NCBI GenBank assembly: GCA_033065855.1
Contig: JAVXUO010000322.1
Coordinates: 124,001-188,000, forward strand
From: Escallonia rubra
Lineage: Eukaryota; Streptophyta; Magnoliopsida; Escalloniales; Escalloniaceae
Direction: 5' to 3'
DNA: 64,000 bases
The notes beneath the pieces were generated by a model. It was given only the letters and a program-made list of their open reading frames with translations. It had not been told where the DNA came from and searched no databases. The translations under genes were made by a program, and so were the position numbers. Shown in pieces: positions 3,852-41,184 of the stretch. The first letter of the stretch is position 1; each line of letters opens with the position of its first letter.

Positions 3852-3856
3852 AAAGT
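3852..3856. repeat. target-site duplication AAAGT, left copy
   Basis: AAAGT directly precedes the LTR terminus at 3857. The same five bases at 18421-18425 directly follow the LTR terminus at 18420. Element X homology stops at the first and resumes at the second, which supports both edges independently. Confidence 0.85.
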
Positions 3857-4400
3857 TGTTACAAAATCGCTCTAGATAAATATGTATAGAACACGATATC
3901 CAAACGAGAGAGCACAAGAAAACTGAGAGAACTCAAATCCACTTTGCACAAGTCAGATTTACAACACTCCCTCACATGTATCTCTCAATTGTTTTCCTAC
4001 TCAAATAAGGAATCTTCTCTCTTCTTGTTTTCCTACTCAAAGAAGGACTCTTTTCTCTTGACCTTGAATACAATACAAGACAACTTACTTATACTAGAGA
4101 TAAGCATGGATCTTCTCTTGATAACCAATGTGGGACATAGTTATAAGACATATATCAACAATCTCCACCTTGGCTTGTATTAACAAACCACTCCATAAGG
4201 AAATTGTAATATGCCTTCAGTACCTTCTTCAGGTACTCCACCTTGCATCCCATTTAAAGGAAGGGATGCACTTCACCTTGAACTCAGCAAGAAAGAAGAT
4301 GAATCAAGCTCAAGCGATGCTTGAACTTAACTGTTGTGACTGTCTTCGTGAGCATATTAGATGCGCTGTCATTGGCCTCATCTTTCGCTGACCGTAGCAT
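3857..4400 (-). mobile_element. Copia 'D' 3' end: LTR, polypurine tract and RNase H tail
   Basis: Read on the minus strand, RNase H C-terminal sequence of the 'DMLTK..T..KF.HCL' style runs from about 4400, followed by a polypurine tract (AAGGTGGAGAT, 4161-4171). A 304-bp LTR at 3857-4160 then starts TGTTGATATATGTC and ends TTTTGTAACA. The LTR is clearly related to the solo LTR at 37323-37675. To its right the sequence changes to Ty3/gypsy type, so only the 3' end of this element is here. It is a broken fossil. Confidence 0.75.
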
Positions 4401-6261
4401 AGCGTCGATCCCTTGTCCAGCTGTAACACGGTAATCCCCTTAAGTACGTCAGCCCCATCCTTGGACACCAACGGGATTATCCACTACGGTTGGCCTTCTT
4501 TACCCGCCATCATCATCACCCCACAATATGGATTGAGTGTAGTGCTCGACTTCTCCATGAAGTCCATTCCAAGCACCACCTCAAGCTCATCCATATCGAT
4601 GATGTTAAAGTCAGCCTTCCCTGTCCATCTGTCGATCCTCAAATCGACGTTCTTGACGACTCCCTTCGTTGGTTGCTCCTCGGCATTCACGGTAGTGAAC
4701 CAACTCTTATCCTTAGTTGGTTTTAGCCCAAGCCACTCGGCAACCCTCGGACTCATGAAGTTGTGGGTGGCCCCGGTATCCACAAGCGCTTCTTGAGTCT
4801 TCCTTGCAACATCCACCGTTGCGTAGAGCAAGCCTCTTTTCTTCTTGCTCTTCTTCCCCTTGGCAGCTTCTTCCTTTGATTTCTGCACGAACACATTGAC
4901 GCGTGCCTCCCTGTCGCTGCTGGAAGAATCCCCCTTGCTATCTTTTTGCTTCTCGAGGAACGCAATCATCTTGCCCTTGTGTGGGCAATCCCTTCTGTAA
5001 TGTGGACCTGCATAGTAGAACCATCTTCCTCTAGGCCCCACATGAGCCTTATGGTCACAAGAGTCACCCCACTTACGACTTCCCTCGTGCTTCTTCTCCT
5101 CCTTGTGATGGCGGTAACGTCCCTCGTCCCCATTCTGCCCATCATCGGTTGTACTAGGTAAGCCACTCTTCGACCTACCGTCTCCCCCATCTTTGGCACG
5201 CTCGTGCCTTGGAGATCCCTGCCTCTCACCTTGCTTGAAGTCTTCCAACCTCTCGACAATCGCCATGATAGAAGTCAAGTCGTGAGGTTCTCTTCGCCGT
5301 AACTCTGTGGCAACCCCCTGCTACAACCCGTCAACGAAGAAGCATAGTCGCTACCTCTCGGACATCTCCGGTATTTTGACCATTAAAGCCAAGTACTCCT
5401 TCACATACTCACGGATGCTCCCTTCTGCCTCAGCCGTCGAAGGTTTATCACCGATGCTATCCAGATAGAACTGCCTTTGTAGTTCATGCTTAAACTTCTC
5501 CTACGTTTTGACGTCGTTCTCATCCGTATAGCGATGCCTCCACCATGAGGTAACTGTATCCATAAGGTACATGACCGCCGTATGCACCTTCTCCTCCTCC
5601 TCATCGATGTCAAGGGCTTCAAAGTACCGCTCTAAGTGCCAAAAGAAGTTATCCACCTGCCTCGCCTCTCTCGTTCCATCGTGCGATCTCGGCTCTGGCA
5701 TTTTCTTTCGCCTTGACTGAACCGCGATACACCCCTACCTCATATATCTTGTAAGCTCTTTCTTACAAGCAACTAGTTCTTCTTGGAGCTCCGTGACTTG
5801 TCCCTTGAGATCCTTGTGTCGTTGCACCTCCCACTTGGTGAAATGGGCGACCCTCTCATCGATCAAGTCATTTAGCTCCTCTGCAAACACATCAAATTTC
5901 CGTTCCAGCAAAGTTAATCAACTGTCTACCTCCACGTCATCTAATCTATTGAAGATTAGTTCCACCTGATTTGCGACAGTCCGCTGCACCTTCTCCTCCT
6001 CGTCGATGTCAAGGGCTTCAAAGTACCGCTCCAAGTGCCAAAAAAACTTATCCACCTGCCTCGCCTCTCTCGTTCCATTGTACGATCTCGGCTCCAGCAT
6101 TTTATTTTGCTTTGGCTGCACCACGATACACCCTTGCCTCGCAGCTCTTGTAAGCTCTTTCTTACAAGCAACTAGTTCTTCTTGGAGCTCCGTGACTTGT
6201 CCCTTGAGATCCTTGTGTCGTTGCACCTCCCGCTTGGTGAAATGGGTAACCCTCTCATCGA
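4401..6261 (-). mobile_element. Ty3/gypsy gag-protease fragment with internal duplication
   Basis: On the minus strand this encodes Ty3/gypsy gag ('FFWHLERYFEALDIDEEE' style), a CCHC-like knuckle ('HYRRDCPHKGK') near 4970-5020, and a retropepsin domain with the DTGA motif ('ALVDTGATHNFMSP') near 4745-4790. The gag portion is present twice: about 5560-5880 and about 5985-6261 are near-identical direct copies. No reverse transcriptase, integrase or LTR of this family is present. It is a broken fragment of roughly 1.9 kb, joined directly to Copia sequence on both sides, with several breaks. Confidence 0.75.
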
Positions 6262-7889
6262 TCAAGTCCCACATCGACAATACATGGGGTTAAGACAGCA
6301 TTTCTCCATGGGGATTTAGAGGAAGAAATCTAAATGCATCAGCCAGAGGGGTTTGAAGTCAAGGGTAAGGAGGGAATGGTTTGCATGTTTAAAAGGAGCT
6401 TGTATGGCCTAAAGCAAGCTCCTAGACAGTGGTATTTGAAGTTTGATAGTTTCATGAAGCAGACAAACTTCACTAGATGCGACTCTGATCACTGTGTTTA
6501 TTTTCAGAAGTTTAATAACGAGGGCTTCATTATTTTAACTCTGTATGTAGATGATATGCTTGTAGCAGGTTCAAGCATGGGAAGGATTAATGAACTCAAG
6601 AAGAAGTTGGCAAGTGCTTTCTCTATGAAGGACTTGGGAAAGGCAAAACAACTTCTTGGCATAAGGATAACCAGGGACAGAAAAAGTTATGGTTGTCACA
6701 TGAAGAGTACATTGAGAAGGTTTTGAGGAGATTTAACTTGCATGCCTCTAAACCTGTGGCGACTCCTTTAGCAGCCCACTTCAAGCTTTCAAAGGAGTTG
6801 AGTCCCAAGAACAGGGAGGATGAAGAATACATGGCACAGGTACCGTACACCTCTACTGTGGGAAGTCTCATGTATGCCATGGTCAGTACAAGGCTGGATA
6901 TTGCACATGCAGTTGGAGTTGTGAACAGATTCATGACAAACCCAGGAAAGGAACATTGGCAAGCAGTGAAGTGGATTCTCAGGTATTTGAGAGGAACATC
7001 TAGGTTCTGCTTATGTTTTGAGGGTAATAACATAGATGTGCGAGGCTATGTAGATGCAGACCATGGCGGTGATAGAGCCAACGGGAGAAGCACCACGGGA
7101 TATGTTTTTTTTCTGTAGGAAGGACTGCTGTAAGTTGGATCTCTAAGTTACAGAAGATTATTGCATTGTCTACAACAGAAGATTATTGCATTGTCCACGG
7201 GATAATATGTTGCTGTGATAGAAGCAAGCAAGCAAGGAAATAATTTGGCTTTAGAGGTTATTGACAGAGTTGGGATTTGGGCAAGTAGATTGTAAGTTAT
7301 GGATTGATAATCAGAGTGCGATACATCTTGCCAAGAACTCAGCATTTCATTCGAGGACCAAGCATATTCAGTTAAGGTATCACTTTATACGATCTCTGTT
7401 AGAAGATGGACAGCTGAACTTGGAAAAGATTGAAGGTAACAAGAATCCCACGGACATGTTAACGAAGGTGGTTGACAGGCAAAAGTTAAGCCTATGCTCA
7501 ACTTTGATTAGTCTTTGTTGATGCTTCTTGGATGAGTATGACCAGCATTTGTGTGGAGTTTCAGCATTGGAGTTGTATCAGTCTCCAAGTGGAAGATTAT
7601 TGTATGTGGAGCCTGATTTCAATCCAAAGACATTGTTAAAATGAGGGAGTGACCCGAAAGTAAGTTTTTGTGAGGTTGTCCTACATTGCTTATGAAAAGA
7701 AGGTCACAACTTAGCCCAAGTATATAAGTGTCTTGTCCCACATTGGTTATTTAGAAAAAGATCACCTCTTAGCTCTAAATAAATATACATGGTCTTGTAT
7801 TGTTTTGGGTTAAGAGAGAAAACCACAACATAAAGTGGGGGTTAAGATTTTGGTTGTAACGCTGCTGAATAGTGAAATCGAAATCTAGT
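6262..7889 (+). mobile_element. Copia 'A+' 3' half: RT, RNase H, LTR
   Basis: A plus-strand Tnt1/Tork-like Copia fragment. Reverse transcriptase spans about 6292-6960 ('SLYGLKQAPRQWY', 'LYVDDM'), RNase H about 7040-7480 ('ADHGGDR', 'LWIDNQSAIHLAKN', 'NPTDMLTK'), a purine tract ends near 7597, and a partial LTR covers about 7598-7889. It begins abruptly just after a 30-bp LTR-like scrap at 6262-6291. Its LTR stops where element B begins. The first ~300 bp of RT are also present, inverted, in the A- piece at 14930-15200. It has no gag or integrase of its own and only a few breaks, so it is younger than element X. Confidence 0.8.
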
Positions 7890-10800
7890 CATATTAATTA
7901 ATGTCCAAGTCAAATAAATAGTCAACCATAGTATGACCCGTTAAGCCACCTAATTGGATTGGACCGATCAAATCCAACATTCTCCCACTTGGCCAACGGT
8001 TATACTAAGGTTGATGTCATAAGTTTTGACATAACAAAATTGAACAAAACATCTCGTAAGTTAGGCCAAATTTAACAAAAATATTAAAATGAATCGAAGA
8101 TAGTATATGTGCCTCTCAACGCCACAACACCGTTCTTCGGTTACAATCTCAGAATTTTTGCCAAATATGACAGTCAAACAGCTTTATAGACATGAAACTG
8201 CATTGTTCCATAATAAATAACAATATGAACGAGTTCATGTGATCCTTACATGAGTGTTTGTTTCAGAATAACTCAAATGTGCACTTTTAATGAGAAGTAA
8301 CAAACCATAATCATAATATCCAGAATCCAAAACAAAGGTGATCAGAAAAATAAATGTCTCAAATCAAAAACCCATCATCTAAAGGAAAGACTATCAACCA
8401 AACCCATGCTAGCAACATGTTCTCGAAAGAGAGTGGGTGGTAAGCCTTTCGTCATGGGATCCGCCAACATAGCAATCGTATTGATATGCTGAATAGACAC
8501 TATTTGATTCTGAATTCTTTCCCTCACAACAAGATACTTAATCTCAATATGCTTCGTTCCACCACTTGATTTGTTGTTCTTGGAAAAGAAAACAGTAGCC
8601 TGATTGTCACAGAATATCTTCAGTGGTCTTGAAATGGTGTCAACCCCTTTAAGTCCCGTAATGAAGTTCTTCAACCATACACCATGACACGAAGCCTCAA
8701 AACATGCCACAAATTCTGCCTCCATGGTGTGGGAAGCCACTAATGACTGCTTACCACTCTTCTATGAAACAGCTCCTTCCGCGAGCATGAAGACATAACC
8801 TGATGTGGATTTCAGGGTATCTACACACCCTGCATAATCGGAATCGGAATAACCAAGAAACCTCAAGGTTATCTGACTTCCTGTAGGTAAGCATGAAATC
8901 CTTGGTACCCTGTAAGTAACACATGACTTTCTTGGCTGCTTTCCAATGACCCATTCCTGGGTTTATTTGGTAACGTCCAAGCATGCCAACAACATATGCT
9001 ATATCTGGGTGAGTATAGACTTGAGCATACATAAGACTCCCTACTACTGATGCATAGGGAATACGTTCCATTTCATCTTGCTCCAGTTGGTTCCTAGGAC
9101 ATTGTAGCAAACTAAAATTTTCACCCTTAACAACTGGGGCAACAGTGGGAGCACAGTTATGCATATTGAACTTTTTCAGAACCTTATCAATATAGGCTCT
9201 TTAGGACAATCCCAATATCCCACGAGACCTAGCTCGGTGAATCTCAATGCCTATAACATAAGAGGCCTTTCCAAGATCTTTCATATCAAAATTCTTAGAC
9301 ATAAAGTTTTTGGTCTCATGCAACATATGCATATCACTACTAGCAAGTAAGATATCATCTACATACAAAACTAGAATGATAAACTTACTCCCACTGATCT
9401 TTAGGTATATACATTGGTCCACTGCATTTTCTTTAAAGTCAAATTTACTAATCACATCATGGAACTTAAGATACCATTGTCTAGAGGCTTGCTTTAATCC
9501 GTATATGGATTTCTTCAACAGACATTTCATATGTTCCTTGCCTTCAACCATAAATCCTGTGGTTGTGTCATATAGACATTTTCATGCAAGTCACCATTAA
9601 GAAATGCAGTCTTTACATCCATTTGATGTAGCTCTAAATCATAATGAGCCACTAAAGCCATGACTATTCGAAAGGAATCCTTTTTCGACACAGGAGAAAA
9701 TGTTTCATTATAATCTATCCCCTCCCTTTGAGTGAAACCTTTAGCGAAGAGTCTAGCCTTGTATATTTCGACATTACCTGTAGGATCTAGCTTAGTTTTG
9801 TAGACCCATTTACATTTTACAACTTTGGCCCCTTCAGGCAAGTCAACAAGGTCCCAAACTTCATTTATTTTCATTGACTCTAACTTATCTTTCATGGCCT
9901 CAAGCCATTGAGTTGAGTGATCACTCATAATAGCTTCTTTAAAGGATGTGGGATCATTTCCTATGCCTAGATTATAGTCAGCCTCATCTAGGTACACAAT
10001 ATAGTCATCAGAGATGGTTGTCCGTCTCTCTCTTCCTGACCTTCGAAGAGGTTACTCATTAGCAGGAATTAGAGCAGGATCCGTAATAGGGGGCACATCA
10101 TTAGGTACTACCTCGGGTGCATCGTTATCCTCTATATGAGTTAATGGCGCACCAACCTTTTGGATAACAGGAATAGAAACATGATCCTGAATTTCTTCAA
10201 GGTTTATTATTCTTGGTGTACTACTCCCACTATACTCAGCATCTTAAAAAAATACTACATGCCTAGTTTCAACAATTCTAGTGGTATGTGATGGACAGTA
10301 AAATCTGAAACCCTTAGACCTTTCAGGGTAACCTATAAAATGACAACTTATGGTCTTGGGATCGAGTTTCTTAGTATGCGGATTGTAGACTTTTGCTTCA
10401 GCTAAACAGCCCCACACATGAAAATATTCTAAACTTGGTTTCCTCTGTGTCCACAATTCAAAAGGTGTTTTAGGCACATACTTACTGGGAACCCTGTTAA
10501 GAATATGTACAGCTGTTTTAAGTGCTTCAACCCACAAAAACTCTGGTAGAGTGCTTTGGCATATCATACTTCGTACCATATCCATGAGGGTACAATTTCG
10601 CCGTTCAGCTACACCATTCTACTGGGGTGTACCTGGCATTGTATACTGAGCAACGATGCCACTCTTCCAAATACAAGGCAAAAGGACTAGGGTTATGACC
10701 CGTTTCAGAGAATTTTCCATAATATTCTCTGCTTCTGTCATATCTTACAACTTTAGTCTTTAGGTCGAGTTGATTTTCAACTTCGGCTTTGTAAGTCTTA

Positions 10801-12523
10801 AACATGCCAAGTGAGTCACATTTTTCATGAATGAGGTAAACATATCCATAACGAAAATAGTCATCAATAAAGGTGATAAAGTATTTATGACCACCAATAC
10901 CCGGTGTAGGGAAAGGTCCACAAATGTCAGTGTGGATAAGCTTTAAAAGTCTTGTACTTCGAGTGGCACCATGTTTATTGCCTTTTACAAATTTTCCTTT
11001 AATACATGTGTCAAAATCTGAGAAATCTAAAGAATGAAGAATTTCATCCTCAATGAGGTATTCCATTTTGTCTCGTGATATGTGACCTAGACGTTCATGC
11101 CACAATTTAGCAGAATTTTCATTCTTTCTTTTTCTCTTACCACAAGTTTTAGGAACTACATCATTCACGTTCATTATTTTCAAGGATTCAGTAAAAGAAG
11201 CATTCAAAATTAATTTGTAGAGGTTTCCCTCCAACAAACCAGAACCAATAACTCTAGAGTAAAGGAAAAGAGAGAAGCCTTTATTCTCAAACTTAAACGA
11301 ATATTCATAAGCGTCAAGTCTAGAAACAGAAATAAGATTTCTAGTCATACTGGGAACATAAACAGTATCAACTAAATCCAAATTCAAGCCACTCTCCGAA
11401 ACTAAACGGAGAGTTCCTACAGCTTCAACTTGAGTTTTCTCTCCATTTCCTTCTAGAACATTGCGGTCCCCTTTGTTTAACTTCTTCACGGAAAGGAATC
11501 CCTGCAATGAATTAGTTATGTGCACAGTTGCACCTGTGTCAACCCACCATGTATTTAAAGGAGCATCAATTGTATAAGACTCATAACAAACGCAAATAGA
11601 TAAATTACCTTTCTTTTCCAACCATTCTCTGAATTTATGACATTCTTTCCTCATATGTCCTTTATCCTTACAAAAGTGACACTTCGGACCAGAAGAACCC
11701 TTGGTACCAAAAGAGCTTGCCTTGTCAGTCTTGGTTACATAAGCACTATTATTCCCTTGCACATTACCTTTGCCAAATTTCTTTCCTTTTCCTTTTCCTT
11801 TAGATGAATCAGTTATGGCAACGTGAGCACTATCAGGTTGTTCAGACTTTAGTCTTTCTTCTTCTTGGACACACATGGAAATCAACTCGCTCATCTTCCA
11901 CTTCTCTTTCTGCGTGTTATAGTTGATCTTAAAAAGACCAAACTGCGCAGGAAGGAAAGTCATAATAAAGTGCACGAGAAAACCTTCAGATATTTTCATG
12001 TCCAAACCTTTTAGTTGAGAAGCCATATCATTCATCCGTAAAATATGCTCACGAACACCGTTGGATCCACTGTACTTGAGCATTACCATTTTAGTGATTA
12101 GAGTAGTAGCATGTGCCTTGGAAGAACCATGAAACTGTTCTTCAATATGACCAAGGTACAACTTAGCATTATCCGAATCAGGAATGGCTCCTCGAATAAC
12201 AGTCGTAATAGAGCCTTTCATAATCATTAGGGATATGCGGTTGGAACGCTCCCACTTTTCATAAGCAGCCTTTTGCTCAGTAGAGCTTTCAGCCGTAAGG
12301 GCAGCAGGCGCGTCTACCCGTAAAGCATAATCCAAATCCATAACTCCAAGGATTATGCTAATCTGCTCTTTCCATTTTCTAAAATTGGTGCCGCTCAATG
12401 ATTCATTAGAGGAAAGATAGCCAGTAATTGCAGCAGGACTATACGTTAAACAATAACAATAATCATGCACGTTAGTACCGAAACTCCACATGATGAAGAC
12501 AATTAGTTCATCATTTAACATAT

Positions 12524-12532
12524 TAAAATAAA
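12524..12532. repeat. 9-bp target-site duplication TAAAATAAA, left copy
   Basis: Identical to 13601-13609 and immediately abuts the TIR at 12533. Confidence 0.9.
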
Positions 12533-13600
12533 GGCTTAATTGCACTGTAAACCTTATGTTTGGCAATGAATTGCAACCAAAACCCCAAAGTTTAAAACTC
12601 GACACACAAGACACCAAGGTTTGCCATCTGTTGCAATATCAGGATATCACTAACAGACGTGAGAAAATCCGTTAGTTATCAAGGGTAAGATGGTCAATCC
12701 ATTAGTTCTTATTAATATGTTATCTTCTTCTTCAATCCTTGCTCATCCCAGCCCACCACCACCAAACACCAGAGACATACATTCCATAATCCCACAATAC
12801 GTAATCCCACTATACATCAATAGCTTGAATAAAAATCTTCATTCACGTTGCAGCACTTTTTAGTACCACGAACATCCAAAATCACAACCAAAGGATAATG
12901 CTGGTTCGATTGTGATGGTGGCTTCAGATCTGAGCAGATCTACAGTTGTTGGTGGGTCTTGTGGTGGCGGCTGGGTGGTCGTCTGAAATGATGTTAATGG
13001 GTTCATGGTGGTGATACGGTGGCTGATTAGGATGGAGTTAGTGTCTTTGGGCTTTACAACAACCAGTGATGGTGGTGCTATGGGGGTGATACAATGGTGA
13101 TAGTGGTGGTAGATCAAGGACGGCAGCGTTGGTGGGTTAGTGCAAACGATGGATTTGGCGGTGGTTGGTGGATGTTGTGGTGGTGGTTGGGTGTCATCTG
13201 AAATGTGTTGGTGGGTTGATGACGATGATACAGTGGGTGGGTGGGGTGGAGTTAGGTTGCGGCAGAAGGAGGAGCAGCCAGCGGCGCTTGGGGATGGAGA
13301 AGAAAGAAAGGAAATAGAAAAGAAAAAGAAAAGTTAAAAAGAAAGAAAGAAATCATAATGACAAATGTTTCGATCTGGGCCGTTGAAATTGGTTGAGATA
13401 TGACTTATGCTGAAATAATATTAAGAATGACCTGAAAAGACAAAAGTATCCTTGAAAAGTAACGGAATCGTTGACTCCCGTTAGTGATATCGTGATATTG
13501 CAACAGATGCAAACCTTGGGGTCTTGTGTGTCGAGTTTTAAACTTTGGGATTTTGGTTGTAATTCATTGCCAAACATAGGGTTTACAGTGCAATTAAGCC
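12533..13600. mobile_element. Mutator-like non-autonomous element inside Copia B
   Basis: The first and last ~130 bp are an inverted repeat beginning GGCTTAATTGCACTGTAAAC on both sides, differing at only a handful of positions by eye. It is flanked by perfect 9-bp duplications TAAAATAAA (12524-12532 and 13601-13609), diagnostic of Mutator-superfamily insertion. The 1068-bp element has a GGTGG-rich core in which about 12930-13040 and 13140-13260 are imperfect copies of each other. It encodes no transposase. The frames of 85 and 65 codons in its core are low-complexity and I do not regard them as genes. The MITE also supplies the apparent N-terminus (right of 12532) of the long gag frame of element B. 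Confidence 0.92.
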
Positions 13601-14773
13601 TAAAATAAATTGAGGGATAAACAATTTATTTGTATGAAAAAGGTAAATACACAAAACCTTTCTCAAAAGAAAAAAATATTAACATATCACTTATAACCTT
13701 CCGTTGGGCCAGTTATTAACATACAAGTGTTTTTCCATCCTTAACAATTTGGAAATCATTAAAAGCAACATGAGTACAATTATATCACCGTTGGGCAGAA
13801 AATAATTTGACCCGTGCAACTTATTATTTCATTTATTTCTGCTTAAAATTTAAAATATAATCTTCCGTTGGGCCGATTAATATTTCAATTAATAAGCTTA
13901 ACATGATGTAGTTTATCATTATCTCAACTTATAAAAGACAATAAACTTCCGTTGGGCCGCTTACTGCCAAAATAAGCAAAAATCACTAATTATTTTAAGT
14001 TCATTATCATAGTCTAGACATGCCAAACAAAGCATAAAGTTTTGGCATGATCTGGTAATTTCAGACTAATTCTTGAAATTATAATAATATTGGCTTATAT
14101 TCATCAGTATCCCATAATATAAGCCAATATTAAAATACATATGTTATCAATAATAACATATCAAATAAACAATTTTAATAGGCACAATTAAAATACATAA
14201 ACCCTTTTGAAAATCTATTTTAAAATGACCAAACAGGCCCAATTCAGTATCTACAAGCCCCTTTGAAGAGGCCATAACAGGCCCAAGTTTAAGTAGCCAA
14301 AAATAGCCTAGTTCGTTGGCCTAAATGCCTAGACAGCAGGCCATTTAACAGGCCTCATTACGGCCCAACAACTTCGGCTCACTAGACTTCATCAAGCCAC
14401 AAGGGCCGATCCCGCAGGCCACAAAACAGGCCCAAAACAGGCCTAAATAACTTTTGTTTCTGCTGGGTCATTTAACAGGCCACATGGCCATTTTTTTGTT
14501 TTGCTAAGTAACAAAACACCAAAGACATAGGCCACATACCTCACGGCCCAAACAGGCCACATGCTCTTTCAGCATATTCACTAACAGGCCACAACCTTAC
14601 TTTTAATGGCCCAAATTTATAACAAAGTAATCTGGAAACCTACCTTTTGGCGCAGCCTGTTTTTTTTTTTTCTTACTTTAACGTTAGGCATAATTCATCA
14701 ATTATTCCAACAATCTTAAAAGGGAAGTTCTATGTTTATGCAATCGATTAATGCGGCTCTGATACCACATGTT

Positions 14774-14929
14774 AGCATTATTCTCTCCAAACCCCATGTA
14801 TTGTCGATGTGGGACTTGACACCCGCCCTCACGCGAAGCGTAGGAATAAGAGGTGCTCCTCTTGAATAAGAGATGGTCCCGTTGGATCGAATGGGGCGAC
14901 AGGAGCCTAGCTCTGATACCATGCTTGAA
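14774..14929 (-). mobile_element. TRIM-like scrap between Copia B and Copia A-
   Basis: On the minus strand, a Met-tRNA primer-binding motif (TGGTATCAGAGC, 14910-14921) is followed by ~85 bp of non-coding sequence and a purine tract (GTGAGGGCGGG). About 52 bp starting TGTCAAGTCCCACATCG and ending GCTAACA come next, and then the second primer-binding motif at 14756-14767. PBS, short filler, PPT and a 'CCCACATCG' LTR start is the layout of TRIM-type miniature LTR elements. Only a partial copy seems present. A piece of the same LTR-like sequence recurs at 6262-6291. It could instead be the end of Copia B's own 5' LTR. Confidence 0.45.
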
Positions 14930-17900
14930 CCTGCTACAAGCATATCATCTACATACAGAGTTAAAATAATGAAGTCCTCACTATTAAACTTCTGAAAATA
15001 AACACAGTGATCAGAGTCGCATCTAGTGAAGTTTGTCTGCTTCATGAAACTGTCAAACTTCCAATACCACTGTCTAGGAGCTTGCTTTAGGCCATACAAG
15101 CTCCTCTTCAACCTGCAAACCATTCCCTCCTTACCCTTGACTTCAAACCTCTATGGCTGATGCATGTAGATTTCTTCCTCCAAATCCCCATGGAGAAATG
15201 CTGTCTTAACATCCAGCTGCTCTAGATGTAAGTCCTCTATAGCTACAATGCTTAATATCGTACGAATTGAAGTCATCTTCACAACATGAGAGAAGATTTC
15301 TTGGAAATCAATACCTTTCCTCTGTCGATACCCTTTCTCAACTAGTCTTGCCTTGTATCTCTTTATTCCTCCAGCTTCATTTTTAATCATGTATACCCAT
15401 TTATTGTACAGAACATTTTTACCTGCAGGGAGCTTTACCAAATCCCAAGTTTGGTTTTGTTCAAGTGAAGCCATCTCATCTTTCATGGCTTGCTCCCATT
15501 TTAACCTGGATTCATCCTGTATCGCTTCTTGATAACATTCTGGCTCTCCAGAATCAGTATACAAAATATAATCTAGTGGAAGACAAAGTTTGTCAGGAGC
15601 TTTCCTTACCCGACTGCTCTTTCTGAGGTTAAGAGTTTCAGGCACTTGTTGTTGATCACCAGCTCAAATTTCAGTATCAGTTGTCTCATCAAGGACTTCT
15701 GGACTTTCTATCCTGGGTATCTGTCCATCTTTTGGCTCATCAAGTTCCATGTATTCCTTGCTTTCTATTTCAATTCCATGTTCTTGTAACCTATCCTTAT
15801 ACAACTGTGATTCATCGAATATGACATCCCTACTCCTGATGATTTTGTTATGTTCGTAGTCCCACAAACGATAACCATATTCATCACCTCCATATCCAAT
15901 AAATACACACTTCTGAGATTTAGAGTCAAGTTTCTTCCTCTCCTCTTTATTAATATGAGCATAAGCAATACATCCAAAAACTCTCAGAAAAGAATAATTT
16001 ACTGGTTTACCTGACCATTCTTCTTCAGGAATACCACCATTTAAAGCACTGGCCGGACTTCTGTTAATTAGATATACAACAGTATCAACAGCTGCTGCCC
16101 AGAACTGTAGAGGTAAATCAGCATGTATCCTCATGTACCTTGCTCGTTCCATGATGGTTCGATTCATCCTCTCTGCCAAGCCATTTTCTTGAGGCGTCCT
16201 CTTAATAGTTCTTATTAACCTGATACCATTATTGGAACAATATTCTTGGAACCCTCTATCACGATACTCACCCCCATTGTCAGATTTTAGGCATTTTACC
16301 TTGTTCCCTATTTCATTCTCAACAAGAGCTTTCCACTTCTTAAAAGTGTGATAAACATCAGATTTATGTTTGATGGCATATATCCAGGTCTTTCTACTAG
16401 CATCATCTATAAAAGAAACAAAGTAGAAATTACCTTCAAGAGACTTTACTGTAGTAGGTCCGCAAACATCCGTATGAACTAACTCCAGTCTTTCAGTCTT
16501 CCTCTCTTTACCATCATTCCGAAAACTGACTCGCTTTTGCTTTCCATAGACACAACCCTCGCAAAAATCCAACTGAATGTTCTTCATCCATGGCAACAGA
16601 TTCTTTGAGTGTAGAATTCTCATACCACTCTCACTTAAATGTCTCAACATGTGATGCCATAATGTAGTCCTCAGATTTTCTATAGAAGCCAAAGAGATAG
16701 AGTTGTTATAGGTACCTAAAAGAGTATATAGGGTTCCTACTCTTTCTCCTCTTGCTACCACCATCGACCCTTTGGTCACCTTCCACTGTTTTTCACCAAA
16801 TGCCACAAAATAGCCTTCACGATCCAACCCGCTGACGGATATAAGGTTCTTCTGCAGTTCTGAAATATGTCTAACATCATTCAAAATTAGGGTTCCTCCA
16901 TTTGACAGTTTAATTTCGACTTTTCCCTTTCCAACAATGCTGCACCGATATCCATTCCCGACAGTCACATGTCCATAATCACCATGAACATAATCACTGA
17001 AATAATCCCTATGAGGTGTACAATGAATCGAGGCTCCTGAGTCTACATACCACACTTTGGAATTATCATCCACTGTAGCAGAAAGACATAAATCGTCATA
17101 TGTCCGTTTGTTTGAACTTACCATGTTTGCCCCTTCATCATCACCTTGTCTTCCCCCTGCTCCCTTTTTCTTCTTTGGTTATGTACAATCATTCTTCTTA
17201 TGACCTTCCTTATTACAATTTCAGCATACTATGGTTCTCCTTTTCGACTTCGACTTGCCTCTTGATTTTGATCTTCCTCTTGTAGGACTTCTTCCCCTGT
17301 TATTCTGCTTGTTATTCTGTCTACCTCTGGATTCCACGGACAAAGCAGCACTAGATGTTATACCATCACCAATTGTCTTTCTCCGCATTTCATCATTCAT
17401 CACATAACTCACAACATCATTAAGTGTTAGCGTTCCAGAAATAGTAGAATTACTCACTGTCGTTACCAAGTTATTCCAACTATCAGGCAGTGAACACAAA
17501 AATAACAAAGCCCTAATTTCATCATCAAAATTAATGCCGACAGATTCCAATTGATTTTTAACACCGTTAAAATCATTTAAATGATCAACAACAGAACCAT
17601 TTTCAGACATTCTCATATTAAACAGTTTCTTCATGAGAAATACCTTATTCGAAGCAGAAGGTTTTTCATACAATTTCTCCAATGCTTTCATCACAATTGC
17701 AGTAGTTTTTTCTTTGGAGATATTGAATGTTACTTGTGCGGTTAGGCTAAGTCTTACTGTAGCCAGTGTCTTTCTGTCCAAAATCGCCCACTCACTCGCA
17801 TTCATCGCTTCAGGTTTCTCTCCCACCTGGGGTAGATACAAATCTTTTTGATACAAGTAGTCTTCAACTTGCATCTTCCACCACTGGAAATTCATACCAT

Positions 17901-18420
17901 TAAATTTCTCAATCTTTCTTTTACCTTCTTCGGCCATTGCTCCCACTCAAACGTAGAACCTACGTGAGTAAAACTCGAACCCAAGCTCTGGTACCAGTAG
18001 TTACAAAACGCAGCAACTACGAAGCAATATATTAAGAACAAAGAAACGAGAAATTTAAATAAAAATTAACCAAATGCACAACACAAGAATTACGAGGTTC
18101 ACCAATATGGCTACGTCCTCGGAGTATGACCAGATTTCGATTTCACTATTCAGCAGCGTTACAACCAAAATCTTAACGCCCACTTTATGTTGTGGTTTTC
18201 TCTCTTAACCCAAAACAATACAAGACCATGTATATTTATTTAGAGCTAAGAGGTGATCTTTCTCTAAATAACCAATGTGGGACAAGACACTTATATACTT
18301 GGGCTAAGTTGTGACCTTCTTTCCATAAGCAATGTGGGACAACCTCACAAAAACTTGCTTTCGGGTCACTAACTCATTGTAACAATGTCTCTGAATTGAG
18401 ATCAGGCTCCACATACAACA
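14930..18420 (-). mobile_element. Copia 'A-': 5' LTR, gag, protease, integrase, part of RT
   Basis: A minus-strand Tnt1/Tork-like Copia fragment. The 5' LTR is about 18000-18420 (starting TGTTGTATGTGGAGCC), with a primer-binding site TGGTACCAGAGC at 17985-17996. Gag spans about 17230-17940, with an arginine/serine-rich tail and a CCHC region near 17170-17230. Protease is near 17020-17040 ('DSGASIHC'), GAG-pre-integrase about 16550-16750, integrase about 16040-16540 ('SFIDDASRKTWIY', 'GLAERMNRTIMERARY'), and RT about 14940-15500 ('YVDDM'). The RT stops at the junction with the TRIM-like scrap, so RNase H and the 3' LTR are absent. About three breaks are apparent. Compared with X it is well preserved and therefore younger. 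Confidence 0.85.
17998..18420 (-). repeat. 5' LTR of Copia A-
   Basis: About 420 bp, starting TGTTGTATGTGGAG at 18420 and ending next to the primer-binding site. Positions 18120-18420 match the inverted LTR at about 7598-7889. A TATA-like 'aagtatataagtg' sits near 18290-18300. Confidence 0.8.
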
Positions 18421-18425
18421 AAAGT
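18421..18425. repeat. target-site duplication AAAGT, right copy
   Basis: Matches 3852-3856 and marks the right edge of the 14.6-kb composite insertion. Integrase homology of element X resumes immediately after it. Confidence 0.85.
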
Positions 18426-37150: not shown

Positions 37151-37866
37151 GAGTTTTTTTCCTAAATAATACTATTTAAAAACTTAATTACCAATTTACT
37201 CAATTTTGAAACTTACTTACTCGCATATCACACTTTTGAAAATTGTAATTTGAAATCACGATTTTAAAGTAGAAATCGCTATTTGAAATCACGTTTTGAG
37301 TATGTATATATGTTTTTCATTTTGTTGATATATGTCTTGTATTTATGTTCTACATTGGTTACTCAAAGAAGAAGGTTGCAACTTGGCCCTTCGTATATAA
37401 GACATCTTGTCCCACATTGTTTAGAGAGAGAAGATCACTAGTATAAGTAAGGTGTCTTGTATTGTGTTTAAGGGTAAGAGATGACAGTCTTTCTTTGAGT
37501 AGGAAAGAAAAAAAGAAGAGTCCTTCTTTGAGTAGGAAAACAGTTGAGAGATACACGTGAGGGAGTGTTGTAAATCTGACTTGTGCAAAGTGGATTTGAA
37601 TTCTCTCATATTTCTTGTGTTTTCTTATTTGGTTTTCGTGTTCTATACATATTTATCTAGAGCGATTTCGTAACACATTTTAAATTACGCAGAAAATGAA
37701 AAAAGAGAAATGAAAACGTGGTTCTAAACCGCGATTTCTACTTTAAAGTCGTGGTTTCAAATCGCGATTTTCAAAAGTGTGGTATGCGAGTAAATAAATT
37801 TCAAAATAGAATAAATTGATAATTAAGTTTTAAAATATTACGAGTATTATTTAGAGAAAAAAACTC
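37151..37866. mobile_element. foldback MITE (Mutator-like) split by a solo LTR
   Basis: 37151-37317 and 37681-37866 are long inverted arms. The left arm begins GAGTTTTTTTCCTAAATAAT and the right arm, reversed, begins GAGTTTTTTTCTCTAAATAA. Perfect 10-bp duplications AATGAAATGC flank it (37141-37150 and 37867-37876), a length within the Mutator-superfamily range. The 353-bp solo LTR plus its 5-bp TSD sits at the centre, so the MITE was originally about 358 bp and almost entirely palindromic. It ends 216 bp upstream of the FLZ start codon and so lies in that gene's proximal promoter region. Confidence 0.88.
37323..37675 (+). repeat. solo LTR of the Copia 'D' family
   Basis: 353 bp from TGTTGATATATGTC to CGTAACA, flanked by perfect CATTT duplications (37318-37322 and 37676-37680). 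It resembles the LTR at 3857-4160 in reverse orientation, sharing starts, ends and the 'gtcttgtattgt...aagag' middle. No internal domain follows, so it is a solo LTR left by LTR-LTR recombination. It carries 'cgtatataag' near 37393 as a TATA candidate, 690 bp upstream of the FLZ start codon and in the same orientation. Confidence 0.88.
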
Positions 37867-40880: not shown

Positions 40881-41184
40881 TTTTTCCATTCCTTTTATAT
40901 TTTCCTTATTTTTTGAAATTTGATAAGGACAAACAAACAAGGAAGCGTAAAATCTGCCATGCCTAAGTAACAAAGGCACGCCAATAGCCAATGCCTATCC
41001 ACTGCCCACTGCCAGCACATGGCCACGTGTCCTTTTTCCATTCCTTTTATATTTTCCTTATTTTTTGAAATTTGATAAGGACAAACAAACAAGGAAGCGT
41101 AAAATCTGCCATGCCTAAGTAACAAAGGCACGCCAATAGCCAATGCCTATCCACTGCCCACTGCCAGCACATGGCCACGTGTCC
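40881..41184. repeat. exact 152-bp tandem duplication
   Basis: 40881-41032 and 41033-41184 read as the same 152 bases, from 'tttttccatt' to 'cacgtgtcc'. No differences were noticed by eye, so the duplication is probably recent. It creates two overlapping minus-strand frames that share the same C-terminal sequence; neither is a credible gene. Confidence 0.92.

Follow-up and report, generated by a model that had tools for sequence, protein, structure and literature searches.

Complex insertions of LTR retrotransposons that lie within a single target-site duplication (TSD) are known from Triticeae, rice and maize; in them the two outer LTRs closely resemble each other (Sabot and Schulman 2007, PMC1950507). 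The same study describes recombinant elements that arose after integration and have no common TSD. In rice, tandem LTR-retrotransposon insertions with TSDs are relatively abundant (PMC11899658). Truncated and chimeric extrachromosomal forms of transposable elements were found in epigenetic mutants of Arabidopsis (PMC10462705), and recombination within the Onsen family was attributed to the reverse transcription of two transcripts packaged together (PMC5668417). Here and below, these four sources are cited from excerpts of their text.

The locus described here lies in a window of 64,000 nucleotides, the whole stretch of Escallonia rubra DNA that was analysed (contig C1212, 124001-188000; assembly of 566 Mb in 3222 contigs), and the case consists of a single locus in a single assembly. 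The insertion is pieced together from four LTR-retrotransposon families, in the order D(-) F(+) A(+) E(-) F(-) A(-) from left to right. Like the template-switch insertions in the excerpts of PMC1950507, which are large, have a single 5-bp TSD and are read as one integration of fused cDNA, it is bounded by one 5-bp TSD. Those insertions, however, have like outer LTRs and are built from a single family, with three LTRs and two cores, whereas here the outer LTRs belong to two families, four families contribute and parts are inverted; an inner complete LTR and two complete cores are absent, the E core being near complete, that of A split and that of D truncated. With the post-integration recombinants of the same excerpts our locus shares outer LTRs that do not come from one reverse transcription, but those recombinants have no common TSD, whereas this locus has AAAGT. 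The rice tandem insertions are also TSD-flanked multi-element structures credited to a single insertion; in the excerpts of PMC11899658, however, they show high-identity LTRs and internal regions in alternation, and more complex arrays were filtered out. The Arabidopsis forms offer a parallel in extrachromosomal retrotransposon DNA that is truncated and fused, and in truncated insertions with TSDs, but the circle in the excerpts of PMC10462705 combines one element with a gene fragment, and these excerpts show no concatemer of four families whose LTR termini are mixed. Recombinant Onsen DNA likewise integrates, but only one family is involved (excerpts of PMC5668417). An open-access literature search of partial cover, with subscription papers mostly outside it, found no four-family insertion with LTR termini of different families. 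Such an insertion is a rare accident, but probably not one without precedent in kind.

The preliminary description had placed AAAGT on both sides of 3857-18420, a D LTR of 304 bp at the left end and an A LTR of about 420 bp at the right, with the integrase homology of a host element, X, broken exactly at these edges, and had reasoned that a perfect TSD around two unlike LTR types needs a chimeric element, recombination between elements or a conversion-like event. The edges, the unlike LTRs within a perfect TSD and the chimeric nature were borne out, the chimera being a four-family mosaic. The two AAAGT copies, at 3852-3856 in X and at 18421-18425, beyond which X resumes, bracket the 14.6-kb insertion, and a 5-bp match has a chance of 0.0012 at the local base composition. 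On the left, the insertion begins with the U5 terminus of the D 3' LTR (3857-4160, 304 bp, minus strand), and on the right it ends with the U3 terminus of the A 5' LTR (17999-18420, 422 bp, minus strand); the two LTRs belong to different families and can only partly be aligned. With the D LTR as query (40 of 1238 candidates scored), 32 of the 39 other full places start at query base 5 or 6, which corresponds to 3856-3857. The termini of copies elsewhere were compared by eye. The 5-bp TSD was perfect in nine of 11 A copies (L019 and L024 have one mismatch) and in seven of the eight readable D-LTR copies (L056 has one mismatch), a count that leaves out L054 and L055, whose ends run off the sequence read; one E copy and one F copy were examined, and both TSDs were perfect.

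X is an old, low-copy Copia-like element. When AAAGT is kept once, its two flanks are collinear: 28 residues of X match the A integrase ungapped over the join (residues 349-376, 12 identical), between flanking matches to the A integrase that end at residue 306 and resume at residue 392. The score of this join alignment, 43, is not decisive alone, as unrelated frame pairs in the same comparison reach up to 41. A search with the joined flanks found four X relatives that match both sides, and all four have them within 2-5 bp of the expected spacing (C1219, 223 versus 221; C1870, 228 versus 223; C1046, 226 versus 221; C1194, 228 versus 223), these values being distances between flank matches, not alignments of the intervening bases. 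In the closest X copy (L050) both sides are collinear and about 165 bp are absent at the insertion site, so that this copy carries no information there on the empty site.

Family A comprises Copia elements of about 4.9 kb with LTRs of about 420 bp, and the LTR pairs of its copies L019, L020, L024, L025 and L058-L064 are 95.5-99.8% identical. The insertion contains A in two pieces. The 5' part (14919-18420, minus strand) has the complete 5' LTR, PBS, gag, integrase and reverse transcriptase as far as the YVDD region, and the 3' part (6289-7893, plus strand), which is inverted relative to the first, runs from the reverse transcriptase into the 3' LTR, of which it keeps the first ~297 bp. The stretch 7598-7889 that the preliminary description had listed among the LTRs to be aligned is this truncated, inverted A LTR piece, and its limits are corrected to 7598-7893. 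The two pieces are complementary and overlap by 292 bp. In the 582 columns present in both, all nine listed minority states are common to the two pieces, and 22 of the 24 differences between them are changes found in one piece alone, 15 in A(+) and about half as many, seven, in A(-). Because minority states are shared and the differences are mostly private, both pieces appear to derive from one template or from very close ones; two independent A copies are unlikely to lie behind them, as one haplotype is common to both.

Family E also consists of Copia elements, present in many copies, with LTRs of 556 bp (measured in L044). Its piece (7893-14787, minus strand) keeps 88 bp from the start of the 3' LTR and ~18 bp from the end of the 5' LTR, together with the PPT, the internal region and the PBS. 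Both A and E have the integrase before the reverse transcriptase, a Copia-type gag and RVT_2 (Pfam), the features of Ty1/Copia, the integrase core of E scoring below the curated Pfam cut-off. The stretch 8543-8816 is missing from several other E copies, and so E occurs in two size forms.

Family F is a TRIM with LTRs of ~106 bp, a PBS that is presumably of the iMet type from its motif, a tiny internal region and a 5-bp TSD. It was described from five stretches (L045-L049), the 106-bp LTR length and the TSD CATCT being checked in L045 only; two of the five, L046 and L047, are tandem arrays of F. A 30-bp LTR piece (6262-6291, plus strand) corresponds to LTR positions 3-32 and is identical to L045, and the main piece (14787-14933, minus strand) carries the last ~11 bp of the 5' LTR, the PBS, the internal region, the PPT and the first 35 bp of the 3' LTR. 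The two pieces are complementary, with ~63 bp of the LTR absent. We rejected the view that F is a chance scrap, as 147 bp match a multi-copy TRIM.

The preliminary description had also supposed that further insertions followed the chimeric event. This holds for a TIR element of 1.07 kb inside E (12533-13600), with TIRs of ~155 bp and a 9-bp TSD, TAAAATAAA, at 12524-12532 and 13601-13609, which we take to be Mutator-like by the criteria for that group and which is the sole clear later insertion. It is not supported for E and F: their LTRs are truncated at both ends and they have no TSDs of their own, so that they appear to be parts of the chimera. A plain nested insertion of E in A was likewise rejected, since the interrupted A LTR is not taken up again after E and the E LTRs are truncated.

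The D internal region (4161-6268, minus strand) encodes an aspartyl protease in an ORF of the window; its 5' end, PBS and 5' LTR are absent. The protease scores above the Pfam cut-offs in D of the window and in another D copy, L022, which also shows similarity to a Ty3-type capsid and gag below the cut-off. Neither integrase nor reverse transcriptase was detected by Pfam in one D ORF of the window and three of L022, and D can be classed from its sequence as a putative non-autonomous element, having LTRs and no detected pol. D LTRs give self-matches of 346-464 bp in ten copies. In L021, a D-type LTR borders a Copia element that has gag and RVT_2. The D family, which has many copies, combines LTRs common to this Copia element with an internal aspartyl protease of retroviral type and a capsid similarity of Ty3 type that scores below the cut-off (window 4161-6268; L022 1012-5315), and it is possibly a non-autonomous hybrid of Copia LTRs and Ty3 gag. 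A tandem duplication lies inside D (5591-5869 and 5990-6268, spacing 399) and is also present in L022 and in several other D copies. A comparison with L022 had suggested a 1.1-kb deletion in the window D at 5456, which was rejected and read instead as an insertion in L022, because its ends there resemble inverted repeats and many other copies align through. This insertion, at about 2672-3818 of L022, has inverted-repeat ends and is presumably hAT-like, judging from its motif.

Elsewhere in the window, a D-type LTR at 37323-37675 was considered as the lost partner of the D LTR at the left edge and rejected, as it is an independent solo LTR bounded by a perfect TSD of its own, CATTT; it lies between inverted repeats at 37151-37297 and 37713-37866. 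No second locus mixing A and D termini was recognized by eye among the scored places (40 of 1238 D candidates and 40 of 1223 A candidates).

The bases common to both partners at the joins number 7 at D-F, 3 at F-A, about 1-3 at A-E and about 2-3 at E-F. None of the joins was found a second time among the candidates scored, which were 40 of 604 for the D-F-A span, 40 of 453 for the E-F-A span and 40 of 549 for the A-E span. Three F matches extend 23-24 bases beyond the E-F join at 87-89% identity; in L047, the only one of the three inspected, the bases past the join are F's own LTR. The F LTR compared with the E tail at this join scored 10, a value that the best of 200 shuffles also reached. 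The F LTR is thus weakly like the E tail, which makes the exact switch point soft, and a few bases at the join fit neither family cleanly.

A and F are both divided by the same two breakpoints, one of them in a 15-bp stretch shared by A and F with one indel (14919-14933). Since in both families the two parts lie at opposite ends of one segment, an inversion of ~6.29-14.93 kb is the simplest reading, and the segment looks like the product of one such event. With the inversion undone, the order would be D(-) F(+) E(+) A(-), with the joins F5'-D5', E5'-F3' and A3'-E3', and two of these three joins are of opposite polarity. The three inner joins involve six segment ends, of which five fall within LTRs; the exception is the inner end of D, which lies in gag. 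Apart from the lost LTR sequence, little is missing from E and F between their two LTR borders.

To compare the ages of the segments, we counted private substitutions, defined as states absent from every sampled relative at positions where all relatives agree. The counts were 65/3027 (internal) and 5/411 (LTR) for A(-), 35/1263 (internal) and 7/290 (LTR) for A(+), 40/2009 (internal) and 10/243 (LTR) for D, and 65/3646 and 10/527 for E. Private divergence thus ranged from 1.2 to 4.1%, with the D LTR at the top and the A(-) LTR at the bottom, and this heterogeneity was not significant either across the eight segments of A, D and E (p=0.12) or with the counts pooled by family (p=0.18), F being left out of the test. 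The samples comprised 11 A copies, five E copies, seven LTR rows from four of eight D copies for the D LTR (L022, L051, L052 and L057) and seven of the eight D copies, without L022, for the D internal region. As a clock, private divergence is coarse and its values vary with the relatives sampled, and A(+) has twice as many private changes as A(-) in the columns common to both; read as such a weak clock, the similar values fit one event. The 5' and 3' LTRs of A differ at 12/291 positions, and the A stretch that is present twice also shows 12/291 differences between its copies, which would make the inversion about as old as the A insertion, with a wide error. The closest relatives of D are 90% identical (40 places scored of 459 candidates), compared with 96% for the closest relative of full-length A and 95% for the closest match of full-length E; this greater divergence of D is compatible with D being older.

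Ordinary reverse transcription yields a product in which both LTRs are alike, so that unlike termini within one TSD need another route. The route that we favour, with a confidence somewhat better than even, is that four cDNAs were joined end to end and that integrase then inserted the concatemer by its A U3 and D U5 ends. Linear cDNAs of co-active A, E, F (the TRIM) and D (the non-autonomous element) would have been joined in both orientations through homology of about 1-7 bp, with their inner ends trimmed and the outer ends, A U3 and D U5, kept intact. A Copia integrase would have joined both outer ends to X in concert, leaving the 5-bp TSD, and the inversion would have occurred at or soon after integration, with breakpoints in the F LTR and in the A reverse transcriptase and with the duplication of ~292 bp of A. 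Joining of trimmed cDNAs would give near-complete E and F elements with loss of inner LTR sequence, and joins in both polarities. As to the pairing of ends, the D U5 end equals the U5 end of some A copies over the last 10 nt, TGTTACAAAA; the 5' LTR of L019 and the 3' LTR of L020 read TTTTGTAACA, and many A copies have one change there. As its last ten bases equal some A U5 ends, the D end could pass for A's own. What was read directly from the DNA in building this proposal is the edges, the collinearity of X, the four families, joins unique among the scored matches, the single A haplotype and the similar divergence; from these we infer the end joining of cDNAs, the pairing of ends across families and the inversion. 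That the locus is the fossil of a cross-family synaptic complex, in which one Copia integrase paired A U3 with D U5 on a four-family concatemer with two non-autonomous members, is a bolder claim, to which we give a little short of an even chance.

The strongest rival follows the conversion-like route suggested in the preliminary description. A alone would have inserted, creating the AAAGT duplication, and a later break in its 3' LTR would have been repaired by copying D, F and E with template switches, the filler beginning at the TGTTACAAAA common to the A LTR and D and ending at about position 297 of the A LTR. The D terminus in the window and some A U5 termini do both carry this sequence, homology of about 1-7 bp is present at the joins, and pairing of two families by integrase becomes unnecessary. 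The break, however, would have to be trimmed to within 10 of ~125 bp and three further switches would be required; near-complete E and F with LTR ends are left unexplained; D and E are not significantly different from A in private divergence, so that similar ages would be a coincidence; and no donor locus with D-F or F-E was present among the scored matches. We regard this repair as unlikely, while treating it as the main competitor of the joined-cDNA origin.

Less probable still is that reverse transcriptase switched between A, E, F and D RNAs within a single particle, in which case A plus-strand strong-stop DNA would have supplied the right LTR before insertion by integrase. Complex insertions with TSDs and recombination within a family are both known (excerpts of PMC1950507 and of PMC5668417, respectively), two of the joins show homology of 7 and 15 bp, and one F break and one E break are at or near the PBS. 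Templates of a single polarity, however, do not directly yield the two joins of three that are opposite in polarity, and a normal second strand transfer would have given like outer LTRs. Serial independent insertions with deletions, which would make the AAAGT match and the exact LTR termini coincidental, suit a repeat-rich region with one later TIR insertion, but they require a 5-bp match of chance 0.0012, a collinearity of X with one AAAGT that is accidental as well, and the presence of E and F without TSDs of their own, and we consider them very improbable. An assembly error within the interval, conceivable in a repeat-rich genome of 3222 contigs, has the smallest probability of all, as the joins have about 1-15 bp of homology rather than long repeats, the outer TSD matches and the window is free of N.

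If the joined-cDNA origin is correct, cDNAs of several families, among them a TRIM and an element in which no pol was detected, would have coexisted and been joined before integration, and the integrase would have been able to use the ends of two families. Such joining would also offer a route to hybrid elements with unlike LTRs, which is unavailable through ordinary reverse transcription. The locus would also be a warning that an insertion with unlike LTRs inside one TSD gives no valid date when its outer LTRs are compared. Outside the insertion, the window also contains a perfect tandem duplication of 152 bp, at 40881-41032 and 41033-41184.
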